A stretch of 64,000 nucleotides of DNA from Schlesneria paludicola DSM 18645. GTDB taxonomy: Bacteria > Planctomycetota > Planctomycetia > Planctomycetales > Planctomycetaceae. This document shows positions 219 to 9,332 of the stretch, piece by piece (position 1 is the first letter of the stretch; every line of letters starts with the position of its first letter). The notes below the pieces were generated by a model. The model ran no database searches. It was not told the DNA's origin and saw only the letters and a program-made list of their open reading frames with translations. The stretch covers positions 1 to 64,000 of the forward strand of contig CAMCMU010000002.1 in NCBI GenBank assembly GCA_945876035.1, given 5' to 3'. A program made the translations under genes and the position numbers.

Positions 219-386
219 CGGCGAACCTACCAGACCTCGCGAAGGGAATCGGACATTGGGCCGGTTTCCGCCATCAAAAACCGACGCGGGGTGGCGCGGT
301 GGACTGCACTTTCGCACGCCCAGACGATCCGTGAATCGACTGGTTCTGGCAAAGGTGATCGAGAAAACTCGGCCACCCGCAAAGTA

Positions 387-507
387 CTCACGCTCTCCGA
401 AACGACCCGAAAACCGTTGTTGTTGTTCCGGTTGTCGGGCGTGTTCCTGTTGCGATTGGCCGTGCGCGTGTTCCTAGTATTGGTGTTCCAAGAGCCGCCA
501 CGAACCA
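387..507 (-). repeat. DGR template repeat (TR), non-coding template
   Basis: This 121-base segment aligns to the variable repeat at 2097-2223 with 110 identical columns, 11 substitutions and one 6-base gap. On the sense strand it contains eleven AAC/AAT codon-like triplets, including four AAC in a row. Nine of the eleven substitutions fall on template adenines. The 29 bases at its 3' end (387-415) match the VR exactly, as expected for the homing-initiation (IMH-type) segment. It lies 46 bases after the reverse transcriptase gene and about 170 bases before the terminator; in the Bordetella phage DGR the RNA flanking TR is needed for cDNA priming. A minus-strand frame through it (227-529) spells an FGE-like C-terminus and could be mis-annotated as a gene. 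I read it as template RNA. Confidence 0.92.
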
Positions 508-553
508 CACGATTCCCACGTCTCCCCAAACGACCGCCAGCGTCAGCGTCCGG

Positions 554-1624
554 TCACTCGTGGACCATCGTTCGGGAGAAGATTGTCGCGCCGAACAGAT
601 CCTTCTGCAAGCGTGTCGTGTCGGCGTGTTGGGCATGACCGAGCCAACTCACGAGTCGTTGCCGGATCGAAGCCAAACGCAAGTCACCATTTGCGAATCC
701 CTCTTGCATTCTTCGTAACCGCCGTCGCAGTCGAATGAGGTTCTCTCGCGGGAGTAGTCGATACGTTGGAAACACACGAAAGCCGAGGAATCGCACGCCG
801 TCGGCAGTACGCGAAATGACCGATTTGTGGGGATGGAGCCGCAGACGATGACGCGCGAGATCTTCGCGACAGCGTTCGCGGATTGCCGACAGGGAGCGTT
901 TGTCGTCGCCGAAGATTGCAAAGTCATCGACGTAACGCACGTATCCCCCAACCTCTCGTTGTGCCGTTACAAAGTGATCAAACGGATTGAGTAACACATT
1001 GGCGAAAAACTGGCTCGTTTGATTCCCGAGGGGAATCCCACGGCGTCGTTCCGAGGCCGTCACGAGATCGTCGCCGGGAAACCAACGGTCAACGGGTTCT
1101 TGGGTGTTTGAGGCGTCGATGATGCGATCGACGAAACCAAGAACATCGCGGTCTTTGATCTTACGGGCAATGACGTGTTTGAGGATTTCGTGATCAATCG
1201 ACGGAAAGAACTTCCGCAGGTCGCACTTCAAGACATAGCGGTATCGCCGGGCGTAATGTTGAAAGCGATCGACCGCCGCATGGGTCCCCTTGCCTTTGCG
1301 ACACGCGTAACTGTCGAACACAAACGTTCGCTCGAAGATCGGTTCCAATACGTTACACAATGCGTGATGAACCACGCGATCGCGGAACGGCGCGGCGCTG
1401 ATCATCCGCCGTTTCGGTTCGTAGATTTCAAATGTTCGATACGCGCCGGGCTGATAAGTGTTCGAGATCAATTCGTCATGTAAACGGAGTAATTGATTTT
1501 CTAGATCAAAGCCAAACTGAGCCACGTTGGCGGAGTGCCGTTTACGGCGTGCTGCTTTGTGGGCGGCTTGCAGAAGATTGCGAAAGTCCACCAGTTCCGG
1601 CCACAGGCTTCCGTGTCGCTTCAT
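554..1624 (-). CDS. DGR reverse transcriptase
   Basis: The 356-residue protein is an RNA-directed DNA polymerase of the DGR family, which copies the template repeat into adenine-mutagenised cDNA. Visible motifs are a catalytic aspartate in CDLRKFF (D135), [10 protein letters not shown] (residues 196-205; DGR enzymes carry a GxxxSQ form of this motif) and the active-site box YVDD (231-234). A basic C-terminal thumb follows. The length is normal and there is no added maturase, endonuclease or protease domain, as expected for a DGR enzyme. The start is well supported by GGGAGG five bases upstream. The reading frame overlaps the 3' end of avd by 83 bases in another frame, and the template repeat follows directly downstream. 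Confidence 0.95.
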
Positions 1625-2057
1625 GGTTCCTCCCGAGGGTTTGTTTGATCCAGCCCCCGACCGATTGACCGATCTCGTTCACGAAACGAGCGGCCGAGCC
1701 GTAACTCGCCAGCGTCAGACAGTGGATGTCTTTGACTGTCCGGAACTGGAAACGAAGTAACTCCAGTTCTAGGTTTGTTTGCAACAACAACGGAAGCCGA
1801 TCCTTGGTGAACTTCGCTCGCAACAGGAGGTCGAGAATGTCTGACAACCGTGTTTCCAACCGTAACCCGATTCCGTAGCGATGGCTGCGGGGAAACTTTG
1901 CGATGTGATTTAATGTCCAGACCAACAACGCCTGTGTTTTTTCGATCACAAGCAAATCGGCTTCCGCTTGGGCCGTGATTGCTCCTTGGCTCGGTCGTTT
2001 CGGGCTGTCAAAAAAAATCGCGCGCCTCGCTCCGCTCGACGCAACCAGACAAGGCAA
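1542..2057 (-). CDS. avd: DGR accessory protein Avd (four-helix bundle)
   Basis: The core reads as a helical protein with the Avd-typical pattern: [14 protein letters not shown] near the first helix, an [20 protein letters not shown] helix, a third leucine-rich helix and a C-terminal [11 protein letters not shown] segment. In characterised DGRs Avd forms a pentameric barrel that binds the reverse transcriptase and template RNA and is required for cDNA synthesis. The gene begins 29 bases after the stop of the target gene and ends inside the reverse transcriptase gene. The first 36 residues do not resemble the family. A GTG at 1949 would give a start at VIEKTQALL, close to the usual Avd N-terminus, and may be the true start. 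Confidence 0.85.
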
Positions 2058-2086: not shown

Positions 2087-5000
2087 TTACGGAGTCCTCA
2101 CGCTCTCCGAAACGACCCGAAAACCAAAGAAGATGTAGTTGATCCGGTTGCCGGGCGCGTTCATGTTGCGATAGGCCGTGCGTGTGTACCTAGTATAGGT
2201 GTCCCAAGAGCCGCCACGAACCAAACAATGATACCCGGAGAACGGGCCTTGAGGATCTTCGGAAGGTGATTTGCCGTAGTAATTCGCGTCGTACCTATCG
2301 GAACACCATTCCCAAACATTTCCATGCATATCGTGCAGCCCGAAGGGATTCGCCCCGTAAGAACCGACCGTCGTTGTCCTCCCAAGATTCGGACCCTTCA
2401 CCGTCGTGCCGTAGGGATCCTCACCATTGACGTTTGACTTGGTCCCGTTATTCTGCGTCCCCCAATAAAACGGCGGCGTTGTTCCTGCCCGGCATGCGTA
2501 TTCCCATTCGGCTTCCGTTGGCAATCGGTACCGCACGCCATCCTGCTCGCTCAACGTCTTGCAAAACGCCTGCGCATCATCCCACGAAACACAATCCACT
2601 GGAAAATTGCTCGTCGTTAGACCACGCACAGCAACGCTGCCGCCACCGGTTGTTGAAAAATAACTCGGATTACGTCCCATCACGCTCTTGTATTCACCTT
2701 GCGTTACCTCGTACACGCCCATGTAAAACGGCTTCGTGATCTTGACCACGTGTTGGGTTTCGTCACCACTGCGACCGGCTTCGGACGTCGGCGAACCCAT
2801 CGTGAACGTCCCTGCGGGAATCAACGTCAATTTCATCCCCGTGGTTCTCGAGGTGATTAACTGTTGGGAGGATACGCTTGTCAATGGCGTTATCGGCGGC
2901 AGTTCCGCGATCACCATCAATTCCTTGACTGTTGGTCTCGGGCGTTTGAGGTCGGCGCGTAGGGCCCCGTCGGCGTGCGGGGTCTGTAATTCCTTAAATT
3001 TGAGGATTCGCAAACGGAGTTGCACCAGTTCGGGATTCAGTTCTGCGACACCGAGCGCGCGTTCGTCGTCATGCAGTTTTTGTACTGCGTCGATCTGCTG
3101 TTGGAGTTGGCTAAAAACCAGTTTGTCGCACTCGTCGCGTTTCTTTAAAGCGTTTTCAGCCACGTTCGCGGCATAGGAAATTTCTAAATCCTTGGCTTTG
3201 ACCTTCGGATGATTTGGCTCGAAGCCGTTCGGCTTGACCAACGCCATTCGTTCGGATTCCAACGCGCGCAATTCCGCTACGGATTTGTGGAGCGCCTCGT
3301 CGGCCGCATCCCTGTTCTTCGGATCGAGTTGCCCGAGATCCTGCTCAATCGCGATCAGTTGCTTGTTGATCGCAATGCCGGCACCGGGATTCTCCTGCAC
3401 CAACGTCTTCCACCGTGCGGCATCTTCTCGATAACGGTCGCGCGCCCGTTCCGCTATCGCTAATTTCTTCTGGTCGTTGTCGCGTTCTTGATTCAGCTTG
3501 GCGATCTGCTGTTTGTCATTGTTCACATCATCCGTTTGGATTTTGATGTTTGTCCGCAGTTTCTGGAGCTCGTTTTCTCCTGCCGTGGCTTTGGCTTCGG
3601 TCTCTTGCAGGCGTTTCTGCTCGGATGCCAACGCCGTTTTTGCCGTGTCTAATTTCTGCTGATCGTTGAGTCGTTCTTCAGTCAGCTTGGTGATCTGCTC
3701 GTTGAGATTTTTCACTTTCTCAGTTTGAAGTGTATTTTCTTTCAACAGTTTTTCACGCTCGTCGTTCAGTTCAGCGATGCGGGTTTGCCTATTCTTTTCC
3801 AACGCCTCCATTTCCTCTGGTTTGAGTTTCTCCACTAGCCACTCGTTGAGTCGCTGCCGAGATTTTTCGAACCCGTCCTTGGCATTTTTCAGTTCCTGAC
3901 CATTGTCCCACTTCTGGGCACCCCATTTCTGTTCAGCCATGTGTCCAAAAGATTCGATTGTCTTAAAACTGTCCTCGTTAAGCAGTCGTTGGGGGACCCC
4001 TGCCTTGACTTGATCGTACTCCCGTTTCGCATCGCGTGCCAAATGGGCTTCTTGGTTGGCGCTATATAGCTTCGTTAGCTCCGTCATAAACTCTGCAAGA
4101 TGTGTTTGAATGGAATCAATTTCCCCATCCTCAATCTGTTTTTTGAGATCGAGGTACTTCTTAAGGATCTCTTGCAGACGCGTGTTGATCATCGGCGCGC
4201 CAACCACCCAGAGATCCGTCGAATGTCTCTTTGCAGATTCGTCCTCCAACAACACAGCGCCGATGTATTTCCGCATTTTTTCCGCTTTAATCACTTCGTC
4301 GGAGAGTTGCAATACATTGCGAGTTTTGGCGATGCGATCGACCGTCGTCATCCGCTCGGTCTCCAGCAGTTGCAGCCGCTTAGCCACAGCCGGATGCGTA
4401 CGGTTTTCTAACTTCTCCACTTTGCTTTCTAACTCGCCTAAGATTTTGAGATTGGCTGTCGAATACTTTTGGCTATTGTTCCAGCCGATGACTCCAACGA
4501 CCAGCATTAACGCCAGTGTGACCGCCGACCACCGGAACCAGGCCTTAACGCACAACTGAGCGTTCCGCCACCCCGCCAAGTCGTTGGCCAGATGCTCAGC
4601 TGTGGCATACAGATTCGAATCGTCGGTTTTGCTGGGATCTTTCTCTCGCAGTCCCTTCAACACCACGCGGCGGACGCGCGGGGGAATGCCTTTGTCTTTC
4701 AGTTTGGCCTCCCACTGCGTCGGCAAGACATCATTCTTTTGTTGGTTTGTCAGTATCTGGAAACCGATTGCCGCTGCGACGTAGATGTCTGTCCAGAGTG
4801 CGGTGCGCGATTCACCGGTCTTCCACGCTTCGGGCATCACCCCCGGAGTGGCGAGGTTCTCGCTGGATTGAGAATTGGAATAGGCCTTCTTTAGCAACTT
4901 CGATCCCGCCAGATCGATGAATCGGATCACACCGTCTTTCTGAACGAGGACGTTTTCCGACTTGAGATCTCCGAATACGAGGTGGCACTGGTGCAGACGA

Positions 5001-5458
5001 TGGAGGGCGCGACAGAGCCGCTCCCACAGGTCGATCTTCTCAGCCAGAGACATCGTTCGGCCTGAGCCGACGTATTCGCCAATCGGTCGGCCGTCGATGT
5101 ATTCGAGGACCAAGTATCGTTGCAGATTTTCCTCGTCGACGCACTGGAAATAGCCGACGATCAGGTCTTGTGGTAGGTGGTTGGATGCCAGAACACGGCA
5201 TTCGTTGAGGAAAAGTTTCTTGGCGGCATCCGAGTTCTCATGGTAGACCTTCACGGCCAACCGACGATGAGGCGCGGCTCGCTCTTTGACGAGGAATACG
5301 ACCGCCTGACCACCCTGTCCCAGCTCCCCTTGAAACTGGTATTTTTCGTGCAGATGCTGCCAAGTCGGTTCCGTCAGTAATTCCGATCTGGTCTCCGTCC
5401 CCAGCACGGTTCCGGCCAGCAGATTGCGCGGTTCACCGGAATCGGGCAGAATTTTCAT
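2087..5458 (-). CDS. DGR-diversified Ser/Thr kinase, coiled-coil, FGE-domain receptor
   Basis: The N-terminus (about residues 40-300) is a Hanks-type kinase: glycine loop GELGQGGQAV, lysine K70, catalytic loop FGDLKSEN (D164, K166, N169) and metal-binding IDLAG (D182). The loop is FGD rather than HRD and the DFG box is DLA, so activity is likely but not certain. One membrane helix (about 309-327) follows, then a long coiled coil (about 335-880) that should lie outside the cytoplasm. It contains a 63-residue internal duplication. The C-terminus (about 890-1123) is an FGE/SUMF1-type domain with MVYEVTQ-like, RLPTEAEWEYA, HDMHGNVWEW and RGGSW motifs; this fold underlies many DGR targets. The variable repeat covers residues 1079-1121. 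An ECF-like sigma gene lies 112 bases upstream. I infer a receptor kinase whose ligand-binding face is diversified. Catalytic FGE activity is unlikely to be its role. Confidence 0.9.
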   Translation of the reverse strand: MKILPDSGEPRNLLAGTVLGTETRSELLTEPTWQHLHEKYQFQGELGQGGQAVVFLVKERAAPHRRLAVKVYHENSDAAKKLFLNECRVLASNHLPQDLIVGYFQCVDEENLQRYLVLEYIDGRPIGEYVGSGRTMSLAEKIDLWERLCRALHRLHQCHLVFGDLKSENVLVQKDGVIRFIDLAGSKLLKKAYSNSQSSENLATPGVMPEAWKTGESRTALWTDIYVAAAIGFQILTNQQKNDVLPTQWEAKLKDKGIPPRVRRVVLKGLREKDPSKTDDSNLYATAEHLANDLAGWRNAQLCVKAWFRWSAVTLALMLVVGVIGWNNSQKYSTANLKILGELESKVEKLENRTHPAVAKRLQLLETERMTTVDRIAKTRNVLQLSDEVIKAEKMRKYIGAVLLEDESAKRHSTDLWVVGAPMINTRLQEILKKYLDLKKQIEDGEIDSIQTHLAEFMTELTKLYSANQEAHLARDAKREYDQVKAGVPQRLLNEDSFKTIESFGHMAEQKWGAQKWDNGQELKNAKDGFEKSRQRLNEWLVEKLKPEEMEALEKNRQTRIAELNDEREKLLKENTLQTEKVKNLNEQITKLTEERLNDQQKLDTAKTALASEQKRLQETEAKATAGENELQKLRTNIKIQTDDVNNDKQQIAKLNQERDNDQKKLAIAERARDRYREDAARWKTLVQENPGAGIAINKQLIAIEQDLGQLDPKNRDAADEALHKSVAELRALESERMALVKPNGFEPNHPKVKAKDLEISYAANVAENALKKRDECDKLVFSQLQQQIDAVQKLHDDERALGVAELNPELVQLRLRILKFKELQTPHADGALRADLKRPRPTVKELMVIAELPPITPLTSVSSQQLITSRTTGMKLTLIPAGTFTMGSPTSEAGRSGDETQHVVKITKPFYMGVYEVTQGEYKSVMGRNPSYFSTTGGGSVAVRGLTTSNFPVDCVSWDDAQAFCKTLSEQDGVRYRLPTEAEWEYACRAGTTPPFYWGTQNNGTKSNVNGEDPYGTTVKGPNLGRTTTVGSYGANPFGLHDMHGNVWEWCSDRYDANYYGKSPSEDPQGPFSGYHCLVRGGSWDTYTRYTRTAYRNMNAPGNRINYIFFGFRVVSESVRTP
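2097..2223 (-). repeat. DGR variable repeat (VR)
   Basis: This 127-base segment encodes residues 1079-1121 of the 1123-residue target protein. It pairs with the template repeat at 387-507. At the eleven template asparagine codons it now encodes D, Y, Y, Y, N, N, N, I, N, Y and I in order. The terminal 29 bases (2097-2125) are identical to the template and unmutated. Two extra codons (ttc ttt) just before GFRVV have no counterpart in the template. The position next to the stop codon, in the last part of an FGE/C-type-lectin-fold domain, is standard for DGR targets. Confidence 0.92.
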
Positions 5459-5570: not shown

Positions 5571-6305
5571 TTAGCGTACCAGTTTCATTTTCAAGTCAGT
5601 TGAGGCTTGTTGGCGAAGTTTCGTTAAGCGTTCGTCGGTGATCGCGAGATCCAAGGCAATCTGTTGCCACGTCAGACCATCGACGTAGCGCAGTCGCAGT
5701 ACGGCGGCCCTCTGGTGAAGCGTTTCGTCATCACTCGCCTGGCCATCAGCCAGAAGATTCAGAAAATCTTCGAACGTCGTCGCATAGCGGTCTTCAAAGT
5801 ATTTCTGTTTCTCGGCAATGAGCGGTGCAATGTCCGCCAGAATTTTCTGTCCCCGTTTCTTTCTTTTCAAATAGTCCCGCATCATGTTTGCGATGACGAC
5901 CGACGACCAAATACGGAGATTCTTCGCCGTTTGCGCTTTCCAGAACGCATCGGGACGCTTGTCGAGCATCTTGACGAAGAAGTTTTGGATCCACTCTGTA
6001 TACCGCAGACTCTGGTCGCCACGGCGCTGCTCGGGCAGTTGTTTGCCAATCACGCCGCTGCCAAAAACGTGGGTCAGAACCGGCAACAGTTCCCGCCGAA
6101 AGTACTTGTCAACGAGTTCAAAAATGGCGTCATTGATCGGTGTCAATTCGCGACGCAAAACCGCTCGCTGTTCGATCTCAATCGAAACCGTCGACGCGTT
6201 TAACTGCTGCAGGGTTTTCGTCAGATCACAATGCTTCTGCAGCAGTTCAATCAGACGGTCTTCGTCGGTCACGGTGTGTCTCTTTCTGTTATCAACATTC
6301 ACCAA
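5571..6305 (-). CDS. ECF-like RNA polymerase sigma factor
   Basis: The 244-residue protein has a sigma region 2-like part (about residues 85-150, including YTEWIQNFFVKML and a basic MMRDYLKRKKRG stretch) and a C-terminal region 4 helix-turn-helix (AAVLRLRYVDGLTWQQIALDLAI). Planctomycetes commonly encode such sigma factors next to membrane Ser/Thr kinases, and this one sits directly upstream of the DGR target kinase on the same strand. I infer that the kinase may modulate it. No anti-sigma gene is present. The first codon is TTG at 6305 or GTG at 6302; neither has a strong ribosome-binding site. Confidence 0.8.
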   Translation of the reverse strand: MVNVDNRKRHTVTDEDRLIELLQKHCDLTKTLQQLNASTVSIEIEQRAVLRRELTPINDAIFELVDKYFRRELLPVLTHVFGSGVIGKQLPEQRRGDQSLRYTEWIQNFFVKMLDKRPDAFWKAQTAKNLRIWSSVVIANMMRDYLKRKKRGQKILADIAPLIAEKQKYFEDRYATTFEDFLNLLADGQASDDETLHQRAAVLRLRYVDGLTWQQIALDLAITDERLTKLRQQASTDLKMKLVR

Positions 6306-7327: not shown

Positions 7328-7570
7328 GAATTACCCCCCCGGTTGCCGATTTCGTGAACAGACACCAACGGCCTGCCTGAGACAAGGACGATTGGCGAGA
7401 GGGACACTTCCGCAGAAATCTGGGAATATTGTGAAATTTTTTCCAGAAGTTCTGTAGGCGACTAACTCAGTTCTGGCGACTCTTTTCGGCGATTGGAGAC
7501 TGGAAAGACGGAAGATGTTCGAGCCAAACAATTTGGGGTTTCGGAGAATAGACGTCGAATCAGCGCGCGG

Positions 7571-7616: not shown

Positions 7617-9332
7617 CTACAGTCGAGCCGTCGTTGGCTTGAGCGGAGCTTCCCATCCATTGGCTCCTCGAACGTTGACCTTACGGCGGTAGACTCGATC
7701 ACCGCAGGTGGCGAAGATCGTATCGAAGTTGACGCCACCAAATGTCAGGTTCGAGATCCGGCCATTCGGTGTGGGGATGATACAGTTGACTCGGCCTGCC
7801 TGATCGCAGACTTGCAAACCCAGTCGTGTCGCTACCCATAACCGCCCATCACGGTCGGTGCGTAGTCCATCCGCTCCACTGTCCTCAGCCGTATCGGGAA
7901 CGTGGAGATGAAAGTACTTTTGTTTGTGAGTCAGTGATCCGTCCGCTTGAATCTGATAACTGTAGATCCAATGGCCGCGACTCTCGGCGACGTAGAGTAA
8001 GGATTGATCGGGCGAGCAGCAAATGCCGTTGGCGAATGGCAGACCTGTGTCCACAATTCGCTTTTCACCCTTCGGCGAGACGTACCAGATCTTGCTGTCG
8101 TGGGGCGTCGTAAACGGAGCGGTGGCGTACACGCTGCCGTCATGCCGAACCACGAGATCGTTTCCGTTCAATCCTTCTGCGAAAACAGAGGAATTCCCAG
8201 CCGTATCCCAAGCGAGGATTTGCTCGGTCGCTCGAGCATTCGCGTACAGTTTTCCGTCAGGGCCGAACGCCTGCCCGTCGGCTCGTTTGGAGTCGCTGAG
8301 GAATACCGTTACGTGGCCGTCGCGGTCGACTTGGAACGTTTGACCGTTGGGGACATCGTTGTAGAACACCACCCCTTGGGGATTCACGGCCGGACCTTCC
8401 GTGAAGCCGTAGCCGTCCCCCACGAGGGTCCAATCTTCCGTGGGAATGAGGATCTCCTGAAGTTGCGGCGATCCCTTGCCAGCCTGCACCGGACGGGGCC
8501 AGTCCTTCCAAAGCCAGCGCATCGCATCCGGAAAAATCTCGGTCGCCTGCGTGTTATTGTGTGCCCCAACGCCCCAGTGATGTGCTACCTCGTAGCCGGC
8601 GAAGACGAGCGATCGCTGCATCGCCTGATTCGCCATCCACCAGTCGCCGGCGTAAATATTGAGGTCGTTGCTGCCGTCTTCCAGATAGATCCGGATCGGC
8701 TTCGGTTCGTACTTGCGGATCAGTGGAGAATAGTTGTGGCCGCCTCGCAATCCGACATAGGTTCCGACAGCGCTGAAGACTCGCTGAAAGGCATCCGGCC
8801 GTTCCCACGCCGCAGTAAAGGCGCAGATCGCCCCACTGCTGGAACCAGCGATCGCACGATCATTACCGGCCTTCGACAGTTTGATGACGTGCCCCTCGGT
8901 TGTCCGTTTCGTTTCGACGTCGGGAAGCAATTCTTCCAACAAAAAACGGGCGTAGGAATCGCCCAGCCCGTCGTACTCAAAACTGCGATTGAAGCGAGGT
9001 TGCGTCTGATCTGATGTCGCCTTCACAACGCCAGGCGTCACAAAAACTCCAATCGTGATCGGCATCTCTTTGCTGTGAATTAATGCGTCAAAGACCTCGG
9101 GAGCCTTGTACTGCACGCCGTCCTGATTGACGTAGAGGCAGGCCGGAACGCGGGGGTCATACTGCTTCGGCACGTAAACGAAGTACTTCCGCACGGTCCC
9201 TGGAAAAATTTTCGACGCCTCAAATGAGTATTCTGTGACCTCGCCCTTCGGAGCATCGTCGGCGCGCATGCTCGACTCCGTCGTCAGTAAAATGAGCAGC
9301 AAGCTCACGAACGTCCCCACAGAGCAATACAT
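7617..9332 (-). CDS. Secreted esterase fused to SMP-30/gluconolactonase-like domain
   Basis: An N-terminal signal peptide (about residues 1-24) precedes an alpha/beta hydrolase of the enterochelin-esterase/feruloyl-esterase type (about 30-285). It shows the nucleophile elbow GSSSGA, an acidic residue in LEDGSNDLN and a histidine in HHWGVGAHN as the likely triad. The second half (about 295-571) is a six-bladed propeller of the SMP-30/gluconolactonase family (YGFTEGPAVNPQG, NGNDLVVRHDG, FANGICCSPDQ, SGADGLRTDRDGR). The substrate is probably a carbohydrate-linked ester, which is inference from the pairing of domains. AAAGGA lies nine bases before the ATG. The gene appears monocistronic. Confidence 0.85.
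   Translation of the reverse strand: MYCSVGTFVSLLLILLTTESSMRADDAPKGEVTEYSFEASKIFPGTVRKYFVYVPKQYDPRVPACLYVNQDGVQYKAPEVFDALIHSKEMPITIGVFVTPGVVKATSDQTQPRFNRSFEYDGLGDSYARFLLEELLPDVETKRTTEGHVIKLSKAGNDRAIAGSSSGAICAFTAAWERPDAFQRVFSAVGTYVGLRGGHNYSPLIRKYEPKPIRIYLEDGSNDLNIYAGDWWMANQAMQRSLVFAGYEVAHHWGVGAHNNTQATEIFPDAMRWLWKDWPRPVQAGKGSPQLQEILIPTEDWTLVGDGYGFTEGPAVNPQGVVFYNDVPNGQTFQVDRDGHVTVFLSDSKRADGQAFGPDGKLYANARATEQILAWDTAGNSSVFAEGLNGNDLVVRHDGSVYATAPFTTPHDSKIWYVSPKGEKRIVDTGLPFANGICCSPDQSLLYVAESRGHWIYSYQIQADGSLTHKQKYFHLHVPDTAEDSGADGLRTDRDGRLWVATRLGLQVCDQAGRVNCIIPTPNGRISNLTFGGVNFDTIFATCGDRVYRRKVNVRGANGWEAPLKPTTARL

Follow-up and report, generated by a model that had tools for sequence, protein, structure and literature searches.

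A DGR with a receptor Ser/Thr kinase as its target in a conserved sigma factor operon of Schlesneria paludicola DSM 18645

Gene organization of the locus

The window (the whole 64,000-nt stretch of Schlesneria paludicola DSM 18645 that was analysed) carried a compact gene series on the minus strand, running from 7327 down to 383 in the order P6455, ECF sigma factor gene, DGR target gene, Avd gene, reverse transcriptase (RT) gene, and template repeat (TR). P6455 (6455..7327), the first gene of the module, encoded a 290-aa protein composed of an N-terminal membrane helix (hydrophobic segment from residue 5) and a heptad-like stalk, and matched no Pfam family above cut-off. It was followed by the gene of a 244-aa ECF-type sigma factor (5571..6305), assigned through TIGR02937 and, for region 4, by fold. 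The target gene (2087..5458) encoded a receptor Ser/Thr kinase of 1123 aa with a C-terminal FGE domain, as judged from the open reading frame list and Pfam. The Avd gene (1542..2057) overlapped the RT gene (554..1624), and both were placed between the variable repeat (VR, 2093..2229) at the end of the target gene and the TR (383..513). A putative esterase fused to an SMP-30/gluconolactonase domain (7617-9332) lay on the same strand just upstream and was not tied to the module in relatives.

Components of the DGR

The Avd accessory protein matched NF033474 (E 8.5e-25; 87.1 bits against a cut-off of 80) and PF22296, both above cut-offs. The 356-aa RT matched RVT_1 and phrog_1423 (E 3.8e-124), displayed the motifs YVDD and LGNQTSQ, and shared up to 69% identity with relatives in DGR loci. 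The TR, located 40 nt past the RT stop codon, and the VR, covering codons about 1077-1122 (the last ~46 of the target), were delimited by alignment with each other. This alignment of 131 columns contained 12 substitutions, of which nine were at TR adenines, and the two repeats differed in length by 6 nt. Within the ungapped core of 90 nt, A was the TR base at 8 of the 10 mismatches and made up 29 of the 90 bases (hypergeometric P 0.0015). The adenine bias of this pair was modest on its own, and the element could be identified securely as a DGR because the bias came together with an Avd scoring above the curated cut-off and an RT of the DGR type bearing the usual motifs. The DGR was cellular and chromosomal rather than phage-borne: a phage origin was ruled out by the chromosomal neighbours sampled in the window, e.g., genes for carbamoyl-phosphate synthase, EngA, and ketoacyl synthase. 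An Rfam search returned nothing.

The length difference sat inside an (AAC)n run, with four AAC codons in the TR (418-430) facing six varied codons in the VR (2134-2150), a difference possibly due to template slippage in the run or to a later change of the TR. Cleaner adenine-specific TR/VR pairs were presented in three related loci (17 of 17 changes at A in L112, 16 of 17 in L120, and 20 of 20 in L092), so that the copy in the window may have been silent for a while. In the same-genus locus L093, 10 of the 25 TR/VR changes were at bases other than A and Avd was present only as a fragment; together with the non-A changes and the length difference in the window, this suggests that decay may be under way in part of these DGRs. 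A relic DGR, which wrote the VR in the past and left a receptor kinase that now works in the ordinary way with an unchanging FGE tip, would account for the three non-A substitutions and the 6-nt difference of the window, compared with none or one non-A change in L112 and L120; but the RT and Avd frames were intact with their motifs present, the changes were still at A in 9 of 12 cases, and the length change occurred in an (AAC)n run, a plausible site of template slippage. A relic was considered unlikely, and the receptor tip may still be diversified today.

Architecture of the target protein

Pfam, hydropathy, and the TR/VR alignment together gave the domain order kinase, one membrane helix, stalk, and FGE domain ending in the DGR variable repeat for the protein encoded at 2087-5458, in agreement with the original prediction. 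The kinase domain (residues 40-238; 4745..5341, minus strand) matched PF00069 (Pkinase; E 4.7e-20), and the nearest kinase found was 62-63% identical, one genome per species being considered. By alignment, it kept the catalytic Lys, Asp, and Asn, was of the non-RD type (FGDLKSEN), and had DLA in place of DFG; the DxK lysine was not conserved among relatives. Directly behind the kinase domain, hydropathy revealed a single membrane helix (residues 306-324; 4487..4543, minus strand), and all module members scanned in full had one helix in this same position.

Residues 325-860 overall formed a charged stalk without domains. For this part, a coiled coil more than 500 residues long had been proposed; a home-made heptad shuffle test gave a significant signal for residues about 548-722 (3293..3817, minus strand) and none over the rest, so that a shorter heptad-repeat segment was retained, and a cruder Fourier test on 100-residue blocks of the stalk detected no coiled-coil signal.

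The FGE/lectin-fold domain (residues 878-1116; 2111..2827, minus strand) matched PF03781 (FGE-sulfatase; E 5.4e-52) and was modelled by AlphaFold with confidence (pLDDT 92.1). The closest PDB structures to this model were PvdO and TvpA (2y3c, TM 0.80), the latter being itself a DGR variable protein; this confident, TvpA-like model counts in favour of a DGR-varied tip. No cysteine was found within residues 1079-1123, Cys1078 alone bordering on the variable segment, and thus the usual FGE active site was absent; a working formylglycine-generating enzyme was ruled out, as the variable segment was without the active-site cysteine pair.

Within the genome, the nearest FGE paralogue (L126:2947-3837, contig C9 of G000) was a 65% identical protein with an apparent N-terminal signal peptide. 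Of the final 38 nt of the VR region, almost all were also present in its gene, whose preceding segment had diverged, and the paralogue was probably an old remote target of the window DGR. Its signal peptide was taken as a sign of extracytoplasmic work of this FGE lineage. For planctomycete kinases with a single membrane span, the available part of a survey gives mostly periplasmic predictions for the FGE domains (PMC11032199). The charge flanking the helix of the window target favoured neither topology; the lone helix after the kinase, the signal peptide of the paralogue, and that survey, as far as its available part goes, supported the cytoplasmic kinase and external FGE domain that had been proposed, and the FGE ectodomain is predicted to lie beyond the cytoplasmic membrane.

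Comparison of the module among relatives

The sequence comparison was then extended to related loci. The target gene came third in a conserved operon (P6455, ECF sigma factor, kinase with membrane helix) whose order was kept in about 15 genomes, the P6455 gene preceding the sigma gene in about 15 relatives. The sigma family was rare in the order (13 of 170 genomes), the three-gene series recurred where contigs permitted, and one module example (L181) came from another family of the phylum, so that the adjacency of sigma and kinase genes was kept across genera plus one other family. Most complete module kinases ended in an FGE domain. In one locus (L159:11009-13792, genome G145), the same sigma-kinase chassis was found without a recognisable FGE domain and with a C-terminal domain lacking a Pfam match, which indicates that the receptor chassis accepts different tips.

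FGE-tipped modules without a nearby DGR were found at L161, L166, L167, and L181, which argues that a DGR is not needed for the module, although many related loci lay at contig ends, where the absence of a DGR beside a module was uncertain. It was also considered whether DGRs elsewhere in the genomes of G133, G139, and G181 diversify the sigma-linked kinases there from a distance; this was set aside, no TR matching these kinases being found in the stretches examined. In G108, the joining of contigs C11 (P6455-sigma) and C185 (kinase-FGE-RT) was abandoned: the two sequences had no overlap, and their adjacency was a guess.

A gapped-dyad scan for a shared promoter motif upstream of the module performed no better than shuffles. 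Only one 19-nt motif, TTCCCAGATTTCTGCGGAA upstream of the module in the window (7408-7426), was shared with L166, where a near-repeat, TTCCAGAATTCTGCGGAA, lay upstream of the related module; motifs of the TTCCCAGATTTCTGCGGAA type had nine weak genome matches versus one for the reversed control. It is a possible candidate for the sigma promoter.

Four modules carried a DGR: that of the window, L093 (same genus), L112, and L120 (genomes G000, G006, G159, and G108). Their RTs fell into three well-separated clades of the RT tree, from which it follows that the pairing of DGR and module arose repeatedly. The two trees disagreed: (i) the window grouped with L120 in the kinase tree (100/98), these two sharing 63% identity in the kinase, 39% in the FGE core, and 39% in the RT; and (ii) the window RT grouped with those of L091-L094 in the RT tree (99/97), the identities between the window and L093 being 33% in the kinase, 56% in the FGE core, and 65% in the RT. 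As read from these trees and identities, the sigma-kinase chassis and the DGR cassette with its FGE tip were recombined on more than one occasion. That the same chassis was repeatedly joined to different DGRs speaks for a function and against an accident.

Sigma factor and its predicted phospho-site

TIGR02937 was matched in all 15 relatives scanned; for the window sigma factor, its E value was 9.5e-9, below the curated cut-off. The whole-sigma structure match was based on a low-confidence model, in which mainly region 4 was recognised, and named homologues came from Planctomycetota MAGs. In sigma2.2, the motif RYTE (residues 101-104; 5994..6005, minus strand) took the place of DAED, with Thr103 as the predicted phospho-site. 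This Thr was invariant in 16 of 16 aligned sigma factors, within the pattern [RQ][YF]T[ES] at the site of DAED in ordinary ECF factors, and hhalign to Escherichia coli RpoE paired Thr103 with P47, the third residue of DVPD; this placement was by sequence alignment, the sigma2 part of the model being of low confidence.

EcfP (STTA) and EcfK (QATE) offer the closest analogy: in both, the motif Thr is phosphorylated by the adjacent kinase, which drives activation (PMC8999054, PMC13147305). Like EcfP-PknT and EcfK-PknS (ECF43), the window sigma factor had an adjacent Ser/Thr kinase and, by alignment, a putative phospho-Thr at the third DAED position (QATE in EcfK, RYTE in the window); unlike in the window, the sensor in those systems is not DGR-diversified (PMC8999054, PMC13147305). 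By this analogy, we infer with good reason that Thr103 would be phosphorylated by its cognate kinase. The conserved operon and the invariant Thr in sigma2.2 likewise lend support to the neighbouring sigma factor as the output of the kinase, which the original prediction had put forward. Two points count against such a scheme: (i) the kinase is atypical by its motifs (non-RD, DLA); and (ii) EcfK with T51A is still functional because a second site in its linker can substitute (PMC13147305).

Discussion

Taken as a whole, the locus would encode a DGR-diversified extracytoplasmic sensor, a receptor Ser/Thr kinase, and a kinase-activated ECF sigma factor acting in series, a reading held here to be fairly probable. 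In the mechanism proposed, the cellular DGR would rewrite that end of the FGE/lectin domain which faces the ligand at the receptor tip; ligand binding would be relayed via the stalk, perhaps together with the membrane stalk protein P6455 from the same operon, and alter the activity of the kinase. The sigma factor encoded alongside would then be phosphorylated by the kinase at Thr103, and phospho-Thr103 would give the negative charge missing from the sigma2.2 contact with RNA polymerase, turning a regulon on. The sensor tip would be rewritten, with the circuit behind it fixed.

An adhesive role was weighed against this scheme: the varied FGE tip would bind particles or other cells, the kinase would report attachment, and the sigma factor would answer another kinase. 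For most cellular DGR targets with a membrane helix, binding to substrates outside the cell is indeed assumed (Roux 2021, PMC8144416), but sigma and kinase genes remain adjacent across genera and in one other family, and an adhesin of this kind appears improbable.

The purpose of cellular DGRs is an open question (PMC10907252). At other DGR loci of the order, the FGE tip was joined to caspase, TIR-nSTAND1, Pkinase-nSTAND1, SIR2-NACHT, NACHT, or trypsin domains. L094, L095, L097, L098, and L101, from other planctomycetes of the order, had FGE targets with Pkinase-nSTAND1, TIR-nSTAND1, or SIR2-NACHT; L116, L117, and L123 had targets with two FGE domains each, and in L123 two VRs matched one TR. 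This range agrees with the antigen-sensor conflict systems of Dore 2024 (PMC10907252) and points to the FGE tip as a variable recognition module of general use, with the sigma-kinase branch among its outputs. A threat-sensing conflict receptor would share the whole mechanism set out above and fix its purpose in addition: the tip would recognise phage, predator, or competitor surfaces, and kinase and sigma factor would be one of many interchangeable outputs. The effector-like domains on targets of related RTs point that way, as do L091 and L092, two of the closest RTs, which belong to caspase-FGE loci; moreover, antigen sensors have been proposed for such DGRs (Dore 2024, PMC10907252), and EcfK governs resistance to amoeba predation (PMC13147305). 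Against a defensive purpose, the operon had no NTPase, peptidase, or nuclease effector (NTPases of the STAND, NACHT, and MoxR kinds and effectors were sought in the target, the sigma factor, and P6455, and were found in sister DGR loci), a sigma output fits any environmental cue, and PADLOC matches to the kinase, as to the RT, were generic. Defence is quite possible, short of probable.

The reading as sensor, kinase, and sigma factor in series can be set beside four known groups. (i) Ser/Thr kinase is the commonest domain fused in cyanobacterial DGR targets, for which ligand-gated kinase activation was proposed, as stated in the available part of that report (Vallota-Eastman 2020, PMC7517822). 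Those targets likewise combine an N-terminal Ser/Thr kinase and a C-terminal DGR-varied lectin-fold domain in one protein, but as described in that part they are mostly predicted to be cytosolic and come with no mention of a linked sigma factor, whereas the window target had a predicted membrane helix and long stalk and stood inside a sigma operon. (ii) The putative antigen sensors diversified by DGRs in multicellular bacteria (Dore 2024, PMC10907252) share the FGE/lectin tip as variable sensor, and the sister targets in the order of the window (STAND, NACHT) are of the same kinds; unlike those systems, the window target had no NTPase or death effector and a predicted transcriptional output. 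(iii) TvpA of Treponema denticola (PDB 2y3c) resembles the modelled window domain in its FGE/lectin fold with C-terminal VR (TM 0.80) but has no kinase or signalling part. (iv) Planctomycete single-span kinases with sulfatase-modifying-factor domains have the same order of kinase, single helix, and periplasmic FGE-type domain, an architecture common in the phylum according to the available part of the survey, which does not treat DGR diversification (PMC11032199).

The original prediction had also held that a DGR with a kinase output was undescribed; at the level of the concept this falls, because kinase-lectin DGR targets with proposed ligand gating were described in cyanobacteria in 2020, as the available part of that report states (PMC7517822). 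A DGR combined with a receptor kinase and a sigma circuit was not found in the literature joining DGR, kinase, and sigma factor, in a search of partly available sources with most subscription papers outside it. Kinase DGR targets as such are already known; a transmembrane receptor with a sigma factor circuit as DGR target appears to be new.

The locus couples a diversified sensor to an output that is likely readable by transcription, namely a sigma factor with a predicted phospho-site, and a reporter can thus directly test whether VR changes alter the kinase response. A wider view is offered tentatively, as possible but short of probable: retroelement hypermutation would supply new extracytoplasmic specificities to one hard-wired kinase-to-sigma circuit, the combination would have been assembled independently several times, and cells of one population would carry different sensors for the same regulon, giving an anticipatory, immune-like transcriptional response. 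If true, new sensors would be pluggable into a fixed gene-control circuit.
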